Shown one piece after another: positions 36,283 to 40,894 of a DNA stretch of 64,000 nucleotides (its first letter is position 1; each line of letters starts with the position of its first letter). The position numbers were made by a program, and so were the translations under genes. Source of the stretch: Elusimicrobia bacterium GWD2_63_28 (lineage in GTDB: Bacteria; Elusimicrobiota; Elusimicrobia; Elusimicrobiales; UBA9959). The stretch spans positions 1-64,000 of the forward strand of contig MGUI01000007.1 in the NCBI GenBank assembly GCA_001799895.1, written 5' to 3'. Under the pieces are notes generated by a model. That model did not search any database, was not told the DNA's origin, and worked only from the letters and a program-made list of their open reading frames with translations.

Positions 36283-37857
36283 TTAAAAAAAGCGTGACAG
36301 TTCGCCCCTGGTCTTCGGCTCCCGCCTGGCCAGCCGCGGATCGGCGGCTACGCCCTGGCAGCGCAGCGCGTGCAGGCGGCTGAGCGCCGCCGCGCCGGCC
36401 AGCAAATTATAGGCGACGGTGACGGCGTCCCGGTTTTCAGGGCTCTCCAGGAAAGATCCTTTGGCCCATTCGTTGAAGGCGCCCATGGAGGGGCCGCACC
36501 AGATCTGGTAGTCCAGCTTACGGCTCTCGTCTCCGGCCAGCGGCCAGCGCGAGCTCTGGCTGAGGTACCAGCGGAAGACCAGCGCCAGCTTGTGCTTCGG
36601 GTCGCGCTCGGCGCGCTCGGCCTGGGCCGGGTCCCGGCGCAGGAAAAATTCCCGGGTACCGGTCCAGACCTCGGCGAAAGTTTTGCGGAAGTAGTCGCGC
36701 TCCAGCGTGGCGCGGATATCGGCGGGGATCTCTTCGAAGCTGTTGTAGGCGCGGTAGTAGTCGTAAAGCTTGTTGGCGCGCATGGCGAACATGGTGCCGC
36801 GCTTGAGGATCTGCACCTTCACGCCCATCTCGAACATGTCGGCGGCCGCGGCCATGGCCACGTCGGCCTGGCCCGCGCCGGCGAGCAGCTTGCGCACCAG
36901 GGCGGTGGTGCCGGACTCTGCGCAGGCCTGGTTCACCGTGCCGGTGACCACGTAGGCCGCGCCCATCATGAAGGCCGCCGCCGCCGCCTCGGGCGTGGCT
37001 ATGCCGCCGCCCGCGCCGACGCGCAAGACTTCGGCGTAGGCGCGCTGAGCCTGTATCCGGTCGCGCAGGGCTATGATCGTGGGCAGCAGGTTCACCAGCG
37101 GCCTGTTGTCTGTGTGGCCGCCGGAATCGCCCTCGGCCGTTACGTCCCCGGCCACGGGGACCAGGGCCGCCAGCTCCGCCTGTTCGGGGGTAAGTTCGCC
37201 GCGGGCGACCAGCTCTTTGAGGAATTTTTCTTCCGGCGGGGAGAAGAAGCGCTCGGCCACTTCCACGCGGGAGATCTTGCCTATCACCCGGTTCGGGGTC
37301 TCTATGCCGCCGCCGGAGTTGCGGCGGATCCCGGCGGTGCGGTAGCGGATCAGCGGCAGGGTGAGGCCGATGAAGGCCGAGGCCTCGATGAGGCGCACGC
37401 CGCGGCGCAGGTAAAGGTCTATGAGCGCGGCTTCCAGCGCCGGGTCCGAAGGGCTGTGTATTAAATTGAAGCCGTAGGGGAAAGACTCACCGGCCTGCAG
37501 CCGGTCAATGGCTTTTTCTACTTCTTCCAGGGGCTGGCCCGCCGCGCCGTAGAAACCGAGCATCCCGGCCCGGCCCAGCGCCTCGGCCAACTGCGTGGAA
37601 CTGATGCCGTTGGCCATGGAGCCGCCGACATAGGCGTATTTCAGGCCGTGGGCGGCCAGGAAAGCCGGGTCGCCGAGATTGGACGGGAGGCAGGGGGGGA
37701 CGACAGGGGCCCCGGCTGAAAAACCGGGTGTAAAGACAAGCGCCCCGTCCCTGTCCTGCAGGGAATACGGCTGCCCGAGGTTCCCCAGGCAGGAGGCTGT
37801 TTCTTCTGAATAGGGCAGAAAAAGGGTCGTTTCCGTGCGCGGCGCGGTTGAAGTCAA
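36283..37857 (-). CDS. pfaD: PfaD enoyl reductase of the polyunsaturated fatty acid synthase
   Basis: The 524-residue protein has the TIM-barrel nitronate monooxygenase/FMN enoyl reductase fold and PfaD-specific blocks: GMLGFYGAAGQPLEEVEKAI, YGFNLIHSPSDPALE, GGHTDNRPLVNLLP, VGAGGGIATPEAAAAAFMMGA, GTVNQACAESGTT, and the C-terminal DYQIWCGPSMGAFNEWAKGS. It reduces enoyl intermediates during PUFA synthesis. The start is TTG at 37855-37857, supported by GGAGAAAAG nine bases upstream and no nearby ATG. It is the first gene of the cluster, with a promoter at 37916-37945. Confidence 0.95.
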   Translation of the reverse strand: MTSTAPRTETTLFLPYSEETASCLGNLGQPYSLQDRDGALVFTPGFSAGAPVVPPCLPSNLGDPAFLAAHGLKYAYVGGSMANGISSTQLAEALGRAGMLGFYGAAGQPLEEVEKAIDRLQAGESFPYGFNLIHSPSDPALEAALIDLYLRRGVRLIEASAFIGLTLPLIRYRTAGIRRNSGGGIETPNRVIGKISRVEVAERFFSPPEEKFLKELVARGELTPEQAELAALVPVAGDVTAEGDSGGHTDNRPLVNLLPTIIALRDRIQAQRAYAEVLRVGAGGGIATPEAAAAAFMMGAAYVVTGTVNQACAESGTTALVRKLLAGAGQADVAMAAAADMFEMGVKVQILKRGTMFAMRANKLYDYYRAYNSFEEIPADIRATLERDYFRKTFAEVWTGTREFFLRRDPAQAERAERDPKHKLALVFRWYLSQSSRWPLAGDESRKLDYQIWCGPSMGAFNEWAKGSFLESPENRDAVTVAYNLLAGAAALSRLHALRCQGVAADPRLARREPKTRGELSRFF

Positions 37858-37915
37858 GCTTTTCTCCGGTTACTATGAATTGTAGAGGCTGTCTTTGGAT
37901 AAGCAGCCAAGTGTA

Positions 37916-37945
37916 ATTATAACTGTTTTCCTTATAGGCGGTCTA
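37916..37945 (-). promoter_or_regulatory. Candidate promoter of the pfa-ole gene train
   Basis: On the minus strand: TAGACC (37945-37940, four of six matches to TTGACA), 18 bases, perfect TATAAT (37921-37916). Transcription would start near 37909, about 50 bases before the TTG start of pfaD. No other convincing promoter lies inside the gene train. Confidence 0.45.
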
Positions 37946-37979
37946 GGGGTTGGCGCGCCAGTAAAGGAGGGGGGCGCTG

Positions 37980-38816
37980 TCAGAGGAAAGGGCTGTAAAC
38001 CAGGCGGTTTATGCGCCGCTTGAGCAGGGTGGCGGGGTCGCTATAGAACTTTTCCGGAAATTTGAGGAAAACGGTGTTGCCCCTGACCAGCAGTTTTTCG
38101 TTCACCAGCGGGTGGCCGGCCTCGAAAGAGCAGGCCTGGCATTCCCGGCGGCAGGCCACTCCCCTCACCGAGTCTTCGGGGCCTATGTCCGGCAAGCCGA
38201 CGGCGCAGGCGCGCGCGGTGGTCAGGTTCAGGTAGGGATAATGCAGCGTCAAGGCTATGTCAGAAGGCTTGAAGCCGTATTTGGCGGCTTCCGAAAAATT
38301 GTTGGAGAGCAGCCGGCCGGTGGTGGAAAACTCGAAGCGGGAGACGCCGAGGCTCCGGAACAGGCGCACGGCCTCGCCGTTTATAACCGCCATCTTGGTC
38401 CGGTCGGCGAAGAACATGTTCTCGTAGAGCAGGCGGCCGGCGCTGAGCGGCAGCTTCAGGCCGGTCTCGGCCGCCAGTTCCAGCGCGCCGAAATCGTTGA
38501 CCGTCACCTCCACCCTGCCGGCGGCGCGGGGATCCCGGCCGAAAACCGAGGCCAGCCGCTTGAAAACCGGGCGCAGCCGCTTCAGCCCTTTTTCGCCGAG
38601 CGGCGGGGTCAGCACGCAGACCGAGGCCCCTTTTTCCAGGAAGAAGGAGACCTCCCGCTCGTGCCAGGCGGCGTCAGGCAGCAAATTCTCGCAAAATTCG
38701 GCTCCGGCGTAAAACCACCTGAAGCGGCGGAGCGCCTTCTCCAGCGTACCGGCGCCGTCCAGCGCCGCCCGCCCGCGCTCGGCCAGGCGCAGCCCGGTTT
38801 CCAGGGCGCCGCTCAC
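37980..38816 (-). CDS. Short peptidase U32-family protein, UbiV-like
   Basis: The 278-residue protein has no protease motif but a UbiV-like layout: FYAGAEFCENL with Cys42 matches the position of the first UbiV cysteine (YLGEAVC), and ACAVGLP...ACRRECQAC gives Cys204, Cys222, Cys226 and Cys229, like the three remaining [4Fe-4S] ligands of UbiV. UbiV and UbiU form a complex that hydroxylates ubiquinone precursors without O2. Here no ubi genes are near. It overlaps the U32 gene upstream by 4 bases and ends 122 bases before pfaD on the same strand. Substrate is unknown. Confidence 0.65.
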   Translation of the reverse strand: MSGALETGLRLAERGRAALDGAGTLEKALRRFRWFYAGAEFCENLLPDAAWHEREVSFFLEKGASVCVLTPPLGEKGLKRLRPVFKRLASVFGRDPRAAGRVEVTVNDFGALELAAETGLKLPLSAGRLLYENMFFADRTKMAVINGEAVRLFRSLGVSRFEFSTTGRLLSNNFSEAAKYGFKPSDIALTLHYPYLNLTTARACAVGLPDIGPEDSVRGVACRRECQACSFEAGHPLVNEKLLVRGNTVFLKFPEKFYSDPATLLKRRINRLVYSPFL

Positions 38817-39754
38817 GCTCCCCTCCAGGCGGTCATGCGCTCTATGAACAGGGGGCGGGCCGCCCGCTGGCCGCGCTCTTTGATGAGGGCGCCGGCCAGG
38901 TCGGCCATCGCGCGCAGCTGCCCGACCTTGCGCGCTTTCACCGCCGGGGGATCGGCGCGCACGCCGTATTTAAGCCAGCCCACGCCCAGGGTGAAAAAAT
39001 CGAAGAAGGACGCCGCGTTGTAGAAGCGCGGCGCGCCGCCGCCGCCCATGCGCAGGGCCAGGCGCCGGGCGATGGCGGGCACTTCGCCCGCCCGCTCCGG
39101 GTTTACGCCGAGGGGCTTCACCGGCAGGGCCTGGCGCGGCCCGCCGCAGCGGCACAGGGCGCCGCCCTTCGCGCCCTTCTTGAAGGTGTGAAAACGCGGC
39201 AGGTGGATGTTGCACCGGCCGTTTACGTAGTTGCAGCCGAAAAAGCGGTAGTCGAAGATCTCCGTTTCCACGCCTTCCCGCCGGCAGAACTTTAAAACCT
39301 CCGCGGCCTCCAGCGCCGGGAGCTGCGTGGGCAGGATGAGCCGCCTGATCCCGAAGCGCAGGAAAAAACGCAGCGCCGCGGTATTGAAGCAGGGCTGGAC
39401 GGAACTCAGGTGCAGGTCGGCCCGGAGCCGGCGCGGGGAGGAGCGCAGCAGGCTCAGCAGCGACGGGCTGGAGATTATAAAGGCGTCGGCCCCGGCGGCG
39501 TCGAGCGCTCGCAGCCTGTCCGCGAGTTTCTTCAGGCCGCGCGTATCCAGCACTATCTGGGAGGAATTTGCCGCCACCAGCGCCTTTTTCCCGAGGGCGT
39601 GGATCTTTTTGAAAGCGTTCTCTATGGTTATGCCGCGCAAATAGGTCTCGTCGAAAGAGGGCAGGCCGGGCACGGAGGTATAAAGCTCGTCGGCGCCGGC
39701 CTCTATGAGCGGCGCTATTTCTTTCTCTTCCATGAAACAGGAAACGATTTTCAT
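38813..39754 (-). CDS. Short peptidase U32-family protein, UbiU-like
   Basis: The 313-residue protein starts MKIVSCFMEEKEIAPLIEAGADELYTSVPG, the U32 opening. The cysteine set FGCNYVNGRC (Cys174, Cys181; spacing 7, the same as Cys169/Cys176 in UbiU) and ALCRCGGPR (Cys201, Cys203) would bind an iron-sulfur cluster. Family relatives are RNA or quinone hydroxylases (RlhA, TrhP, UbiU), not proteases. The 4-base overlap with the UbiV-like gene suggests a heterodimer. An extended -10 lies 34 bases upstream (39788-39796). Confidence 0.68.
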   Translation of the reverse strand: MKIVSCFMEEKEIAPLIEAGADELYTSVPGLPSFDETYLRGITIENAFKKIHALGKKALVAANSSQIVLDTRGLKKLADRLRALDAAGADAFIISSPSLLSLLRSSPRRLRADLHLSSVQPCFNTAALRFFLRFGIRRLILPTQLPALEAAEVLKFCRREGVETEIFDYRFFGCNYVNGRCNIHLPRFHTFKKGAKGGALCRCGGPRQALPVKPLGVNPERAGEVPAIARRLALRMGGGGAPRFYNAASFFDFFTLGVGWLKYGVRADPPAVKARKVGQLRAMADLAGALIKERGQRAARPLFIERMTAWRGA

Positions 39755-39787
39755 CGGCTTTGTCCGGGTCTGCCCGCCCGGGTAAAT

Positions 39788-39796
39788 ATTGTATCA
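39788..39796 (-). promoter_or_regulatory. Extended -10 for the U32 pair
   Basis: TGATACAAT read on the minus strand, almost the same as the extended -10 at 138-146 (TGATACAAC). A weak TTATGC lies 18 bases upstream. The start codon is about 34 bases downstream. Confidence 0.45.
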
Positions 39797-39836
39797 TTAG
39801 AAACTCTTCCGGCATAACTAAATAAGGCCCAGAAAA

Positions 39837-39842
39837 TATAAT
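39837..39842 (+). promoter_or_regulatory. -10 box for the 39947 envelope gene
   Basis: TATAAT in an AT-rich island between divergent genes. No clear -35. A leader of about 100 bases would precede the ATG at 39947. Confidence 0.35.
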
Positions 39843-39946
39843 AAAATTAAGTGCGGCCCCCGCTGGCGCCGCTTTGCCGGAGTTCTGTGATCTGGCCGCT
39901 GAAGGCGGTACAAACCGCGGTGTTTTTTGCCGGGAGGACTGGACGA

Positions 39947-40894
39947 ATGAAAAATATCTTATTGGCCGCGCTGCTGCTGTTGCTGCCAGTTTCCGCTTTC
40001 TCCGAATGCCCGCAGAAGGGCTCGCAGGAGAAGGCCGAGGACTGCCCGTGGGCCGGCGCCGCGCGCCTGATGGCCGCCGCGGCCGACACCGGCGGAGACC
40101 TTGAAGCCGTCCTAACCTCCCAGGCGCCCGGGCTGCTAGGGCAGATGGACGCCGACCGCGCTAACCCCGCGCTGCTGAAGTTGTGGGGGGAGAGCATAAA
40201 TTACGACGAGCTGGCCAACGGCGAGATAGTGCACCCCGGCATACTTTCCGCCATCGCCGCCCGGCTGGGCGCGCCGCAGCCCCGCGGCAGGCTGATGCAC
40301 GCCGGCGCCGAGCATACTTACGGCTACCTTTTCAGCCTGCTGCCCACCAAGTTCGGCTTCAAGCGGGCCCGCTGGGTAAAGCCGGACATAGAGGACGGCC
40401 TGGGCCTGCCGCGCGGTTCGGCCGGGCCCAACCCGGCGGAAGGCACGCTGCTGGCCAACATAACCTGCCTGGCCGGCGGCATCGCCCTGCGGGATGACAA
40501 GGCCGCCGCCGCCCTGCTCGCCGGCGCCGCCTCCTCCTGCTCTCCGGCGGTCAAAAGCTACGCCTTCGCCGGGGTGAAGCGCACGCGGCTTACCGAGGAG
40601 GTCCTCTTGGCCGGCGGCCGCAAGGTCGTCCTGCGCACCGATTTCGTCCCTTTCTTGAAGAGCGCCGGCGGCAATACCCACCTGCTGATCTACTCCGTGT
40701 ACGACTCCGCCCTCAGGCAGGCTTACCTCATAAGCGCCTTCCCGGTGAATTCCGGCTTCGTGCAGAACGCCTCCTCCCCGGCGGGGCTCGGCAAGGATAA
40801 GCCGGTACAGACCCGCTACAACGCCCATGTCGGAGGGCTGACGGGCGCCGGCAAGTTTAAGGGAACCCGCGCCGTTTCGTGGCTGGAAAAATGA
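39947..40894 (+). CDS. Secreted protein of unknown function
   Basis: The 315-residue protein starts with a clear signal peptide (MKNILLAALLLLLPVSAFS, cleavage near residue 20). I do not recognise the mature part. It has paired Cys near both ends of the first 25 mature residues, a segment AGAEHTYGYLFSLLPTKFGFKRARWVKPDIEDGLGL and no known catalytic motif. The frame is open 32 codons further upstream, but the ATG at 39947 has GGGAGGA upstream and begins the signal peptide. The stop overlaps the next lipoprotein start by 4 bases (ATGA), so they are co-translated and probably act together in the periplasm. Confidence 0.75.
   Translation: MKNILLAALLLLLPVSAFSECPQKGSQEKAEDCPWAGAARLMAAAADTGGDLEAVLTSQAPGLLGQMDADRANPALLKLWGESINYDELANGEIVHPGILSAIAARLGAPQPRGRLMHAGAEHTYGYLFSLLPTKFGFKRARWVKPDIEDGLGLPRGSAGPNPAEGTLLANITCLAGGIALRDDKAAAALLAGAASSCSPAVKSYAFAGVKRTRLTEEVLLAGGRKVVLRTDFVPFLKSAGGNTHLLIYSVYDSALRQAYLISAFPVNSGFVQNASSPAGLGKDKPVQTRYNAHVGGLTGAGKFKGTRAVSWLEK

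Follow-up and report, generated by a model that had tools for sequence, protein, structure and literature searches.

The known substrates of U32 enzymes are ubiquinone precursors and RNA, and TrhP and RlhA are single-chain enzymes. UbiU and UbiV form a heterodimer in which each subunit carries one [4Fe-4S] cluster, with the cysteine motifs CX6CX16CX38C in UbiU and CXnCX12CX3C in UbiV (PMC6747719). Prephenate serves as the oxygen source in the UbiU–UbiV pathway, and the mechanisms of U32 enzymes are described as unresolved (PMC11574389). In E. coli the two proteins are encoded by adjacent U32-type genes, U then V, the same order as in the pair described here. A literature search, judged mainly from listings and light on subscription papers, turned up no paper connecting U32 proteins with peptide loci of the radical SAM type, and to our knowledge a U32 pair is no part of the His-Xaa-Ser (Hxs) peptide-maturation system (HxsA, HxsB, HxsC and HxsD).

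We analysed a 64,000-nucleotide stretch of the genome of Elusimicrobia bacterium GWD2_63_28 (the window; contig C7). An earlier note, made from the sequence alone, had placed a UbiU/UbiV-like pair of overlapping genes 122 bases upstream of pfaD on the same strand. The open reading frames lie exactly so (Table 1): A and B overlap by 4 nt (38813–38816), and 122 nt separate the end of B (37980) from the start of pfaD (37857).

Table 1. Coordinates of the U32 pair and its surroundings in the window
Feature	Position	Strand	Basis
Gene A, UbiU-like U32 protein, 313 aa, ATG start	38813..39754	-	PF01136, HHalign, invariant cysteines and fold match
Gene B, UbiV-like partner, 278 aa, GTG start	37980..38816	-	Profile match to UbiV and invariant cysteines
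PfaD, first gene of the pfa-ole run	36283..37857	-	TIGR02814, 621.6 bits (cut-off 449.25)
Promoter-like site of pfaD (TAGACC, 18 nt, TATAAT), in the B–pfaD gap	37916..37945	-	10 of 12 consensus matches
Conserved secreted-type gene, far boundary of the slot	39851..40894	+	Orthologs of 66-80% identity (blastp) mark the slot in relatives; no Pfam match

Gene A clears the gathering cut-off of PF01136 in Pfam (45.8 bits against 22.4), and a 28-row A profile matches E. coli UbiU with 97.4% probability (HHalign). As a single sequence, gene B gave no family match in Pfam (E 0.1) or NCBIfam; its U32 kinship follows from the profile of 28 B orthologs, which matches E. coli UbiV with 83.5% probability and E. 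coli UbiU with 0.1%. Sequence searches of the PDB with A and B returned no match. Gene A scores far under the curated NCBIfam cut-offs for UbiU (NF047963; 44.5 of 440 bits) and TrhP (NF011996; 41.1 of 534 bits), and the UbiV family NF047965 does not match gene B. A and B are UbiU/UbiV-like U32 proteins, neither being UbiU or UbiV proper. Their pairing is not a matter of chance: of the 32 A places in relatives, 31 have B next in order, and the remaining one lies at a contig end.

The cysteine layout described in the earlier note is borne out by conservation. The 7-residue spacing in the UbiU-like protein corresponds to C174 and C181, which together with C157 and C201 are invariant in a 28-row alignment of A that leaves out L066 (truncated where its contig ends), L061, L070 (which has an internal stop), L071 and L072. 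The CX6C element is common to A and UbiU, but the full motif is not: the third cysteine of A follows after 19 residues, there is no CX16CX38C continuation, and UbiU C232 has no counterpart position in A, whose fourth invariant cysteine, C157, lies upstream and may stand in for C232 as a ligand. In the UbiV-like protein, Cys42 and three clustered cysteines (C204, C222 and C226) are invariant across 28 rows and resemble the UbiV-type layout of a distant first cysteine followed by a cluster, with a longer loop (C204-X17-C222-X3-C226, that is CX17CX3C, against CX12CX3C). AlphaFold models have mean pLDDT values of 80.8 (A) and 81.9 (B), the cysteine loops of both being poorly predicted. In fold searches A matched the U32 structure 5d88 best; B drew unspecific TIM-barrel matches, among which 5d88 ranked 45th (E 0.045). 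The note's assignment to the O2-independent hydroxylase pair survives as a likeness to UbiU/UbiV with plausible [4Fe-4S] cysteines, but does not extend to membership by the NCBIfam cut-offs.

The conserved partner of A–B is rSAM306, an HxsC-like radical SAM protein of about 306 residues encoded directly 5' of A on the same strand at 27 of the 28 A places (out of 32) where adjacency was scored. Its absence upstream was noted at two kind-I places, L046 and L071, no ortholog being listed at the latter. The nearest family to rSAM306 is HxsC, at 62.5 of 267.9 bits, and its orthologs are well set apart, scoring about 300 bits or more with the next matches at 172 bits or less. Among 59 genomes of the family, in sets compiled by hand and with G031 counted as A-positive on the strength of a 57-residue match where a contig ends, 30 have both genes, none has A alone, one has rSAM306 alone and 28 have neither. 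Presence and absence agree in 58 of 59 genomes, the exception being the 60%-complete genome G037. The associated p value (5e-16) is inflated by kinship among the genomes; the triad nonetheless recurs in several differing surroundings.

In many relatives the rSAM306-A-B cassette sits between phoH (a label read from a protein cluster, without a family search) and an Hxs peptide-maturation locus comprising HxsB, two HxsD-like proteins, HxsC-like proteins, an RNase and a barstar. HxsB beside the pair at L042 scores 471.5 bits (cut-off 370), and HxsB is found at many other cassette loci; HxsA is seldom immediately beside the cassette. Among 16 loci fetched, the A-minus Hxs loci with phoH in view lack the entire cassette and keep the Hxs genes. 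Nearly every genome of the family has HxsB (29 genomes with both A and HxsB, 1 with A only, 25 with HxsB only, 4 with neither; p = 0.19), and therefore A does not track HxsB. We rejected a tie of the cassette to a secreted YYPAPYGGY protein or to the RNase and barstar genes, all of which are present in A-minus loci too.

A secreted-type RNase (L089:3723-4705) and its orthologs (PF00545 in that of L044) lie within the Hxs loci, as does a barstar (PF01337 in the ortholog at L049). Peptides with long SHGSHG repeats are encoded at L090:2442-2750, L091:5166-5474 and L091:6056-6367, the first two scoring above the HxsA4 cut-off. The genome that contains the window (G000; 3.3 Mb) has 89 radical SAM matches, with long tandem arrays on contigs C14 and C2 accounting for many of them, and a second kind of U32 pair with a third U32 gene lies inside an Hxs/radical SAM array at L007:6109-8636.

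The position of rSAM306 upstream of A, its co-occurrence with A, the adjacency to Hxs genes and the loss of the cassette as a whole argue for a role of A–B in peptide tailoring. With about even confidence, we propose that A–B is an O2-independent, two-cluster U32 oxidase or hydroxylase in an rSAM306 tailoring system with a peptide or surface protein as its substrate. By homology, A and B would form a UbiU/UbiV-like heterodimer with one Fe–S cluster per subunit. They would make up the U32 half of the three-gene cassette, a putative radical-SAM tailoring system usually found beside an Hxs locus, and rSAM306 and A–B would share one substrate. They would oxidize a ribosomal peptide or surface protein of the Hxs-associated system without O2, hydroxylation of the UbiU/UbiV kind being the likeliest form of this chemistry. 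Because U32 enzymes are known to act on aromatic rings, tyrosine or histidine side chains would by analogy be the likeliest targets. A search of the window's own genome, which is 89.7% complete, detected no prephenate dehydratase. This absence speaks against the proposal, as do the two places without rSAM306 upstream, the displaced fourth cysteine of A, the failure of A to track HxsB, the scarcity of HxsA next to the cassette, and the U32 pairs without a radical SAM neighbour described below. The likeness to the Hxs system lies in the HxsB, HxsC-like and HxsD-like genes that flank the cassette in relatives and in HxsA-type peptides in the window's own genome, of which there are three; the two that were scored reached 85.0 and 80.4 bits against an HxsA4 cut-off of 55. 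The difference is that rSAM306 is just HxsC-like.

U32 pairs extend beyond this family. In a set of 150 genomes, made up of 149 relatives plus the genome of the window itself, 47 contain A at E 0.001 with distant paralogs counted; of 340 Elusimicrobiota genomes, 52 have a match to the B profile. Scanning named genomes yielded 30 loci: one is a weak alphaproteobacterial match, and the other 29 belong to Elusimicrobiota or to bacterial bins without assignment, among them several genomes already present in the relative set. In three distant families U32 pairs are often, not always, near radical SAM, B12-radical SAM, NodU-like or FkbM-like genes; no radical SAM gene adjoins the pairs in L185 and L178, or a pair on contig C36 of the window's own genome. 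Loci L184, L186, L187, L177 and L179, from other Elusimicrobiota families, place U32 pairs near NodU-like, FkbM-like and B12-radical SAM genes (families named for L184 and L177 only). At L060, L052 and L062, nitrogenase-like NifH and NifDK-type genes lie close to the rSAM306-U32 triad; the best matches of the NifH-type protein are CfbC and NifH, below cut-offs.

These surroundings bear on a reading that we consider unlikely, though it carries some weight, in which A–B and rSAM306 are part of a pathway for a small-molecule cofactor or a lipid and the Hxs genes are mere neighbours. The triads of G008 stand among NifH/NifDK-type genes, which are also near in G041 and G042; such a pathway would likewise agree with the B12-radical SAM, NodU-like and FkbM-like genes near distant pairs and with the lack of co-variation between HxsB and A. 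However, the family nearest to rSAM306, albeit at a fraction of the cut-off, is a peptide maturase, and the cassette recurs between phoH and Hxs genes.

In the window the pair stands outside any Hxs locus: A–B is on contig C7, whereas the Hxs loci are on C14 and C2. The C14 locus contains phoH, a 660-aa gene, rSAM306, RNase, barstar, HxsD-like and HxsB genes and neither A nor B. Its rSAM306 is 69% identical to that of G016 and groups with the rSAM306 of G005, G016 and G029 (support 88/91); window A groups with the A of the same three genomes (100/99). Because the C14 locus lacks A and B and the two trees are concordant, we conclude that A–B moved beside pfaD and that rSAM306 was left at the Hxs locus. 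The same split is seen in G012, where rSAM306 stands at an Hxs locus without A or B and an A/B pair lies elsewhere, a second complete triad also being present. The moved pair remains under constraint: substitutions relative to G016 are mostly synonymous, and a simple Nei–Gojobori count puts dN/dS at roughly 0.30 (A) and 0.36 (B).

The pfa-ole setting of A–B is a local outcome of this relocation, and pfaD is a neighbour of the pair, not a conserved partner. With 30 window genes as queries against the 31 loci fetched around the best A matches, only A and B found matches, pfaD and the ole genes being present in none of these loci with an orthologous A/B pair. Conversely, pfaD occurs in 27 of 150 genomes, and among the 26 pfaD loci compared (window included) A/B lies beside it in the window only. 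The earlier note had suggested that the pair might tune the hydrocarbon pathway, and it is very unlikely, in our view, that A–B tailors a pfa-ole hydrocarbon product or intermediate, perhaps as a recent recruit in this lineage. Such a role would fit the shared strand and short gap, in which no terminator-like site was found, and the presence in G006 and G021 of U32 pairs, though of a different kind, next to pfaD. Co-occurrence, too, lends it something: across the 59-genome family the association of A with pfaD is modest (19 genomes with both, 11 with A only, 7 with pfaD only, 22 with neither; p = 0.004). Within the genus, however, it is not significant (16/5/5/6 in the same order; p = 0.12), and the link is far weaker than that to rSAM306 and its adjacency is repeated in no other genome examined. 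Moreover, pfaD keeps its own promoter-like site, as the note had thought plausible. The site is the sole promoter-like match in 37700–40100 (one found against 0.5 expected), and an exact TATAAT lies 28–93 nt 5' of the pfaD start in 26 of 26 loci compared. A block of a GAC-containing box, about 18 nt and TATAAT is kept upstream of pfaD in the window and in L104–L128, one genome of another family included.

The place into which A–B moved is a shared slot. In G001, G012, G025 and G030, which are without pfa, the interval between an FtsJ-type gene and the ortholog of the secreted-type gene at 39851 is occupied by two U32 pairs that differ in kind from A–B, with a radical SAM protein also present in three of the four. 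Hence the slot is a common site for such pairs and is no sign of a tie to pfa. The window's A–B differ in kind from the pairs that hold the slot in relatives, and no orthologs of the slot's radical SAM gene or of its 100-aa protein were found in the window's own genome. At L111:5440-11390 and at L132, L133, L135 and L136, in parts that vary by locus, we observed a radical SAM/SPASM protein, two tandem U32 pairs, a methyltransferase-like protein, a lipoprotein-like small peptide and the 100-aa protein ending CGPYPGYPCGTRYYTVS; this gene set looks like an undescribed peptide-modification cluster. We considered the 100-aa protein as a substrate of the slot's U32 pairs but claim no such role for it, since the window's own genome lacks it and, in the 23 of 61 genomes that encode it, it is also seen with no U32 pair adjacent.

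That A–B is a quinone hydroxylase pair like UbiU–UbiV, its nearest characterised relatives by profile, is highly improbable. A reaches only about a tenth of the UbiU cut-off, B has no match, and in the annotated loci it is a radical SAM gene, not quinone genes, that is linked to the pair; this partner, as well as the scores, sets A–B apart from UbiU–UbiV. Hydroxylation of tRNA or rRNA in the manner of TrhP and RlhA, with which A–B share the superfamily, the U32 domain and Fe–S-type cysteines, is very unlikely given the patchy spread of A (30 of 59 genomes), its cassette behaviour, and a TrhP score of 41.1 bits against 155.9 for the genome's single-chain 614-aa U32 protein (contig C36), which on these scores is the better TrhP-like candidate.

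The reading we prefer, in which A–B act with rSAM306 on a peptide or surface protein, would place U32 enzymes in a new setting relative to ubiquinone precursors and RNA. Extended to the Elusimicrobiota, it would make their U32 heterodimers agents of O2-independent tailoring of ribosomal peptides or surface proteins, obligately with a radical SAM enzyme and for example by hydroxylation of tyrosine or histidine rings, a generalization that is tentative and on the doubtful side. The tie of a conserved U32 pair to a radical SAM enzyme, next to genes for peptide maturation, suggests a new substrate class and offers a three-gene unit. If the reading is true, these would be the first peptide-directed U32 oxidases, and they would provide an anaerobic route to C–O bonds in peptides.
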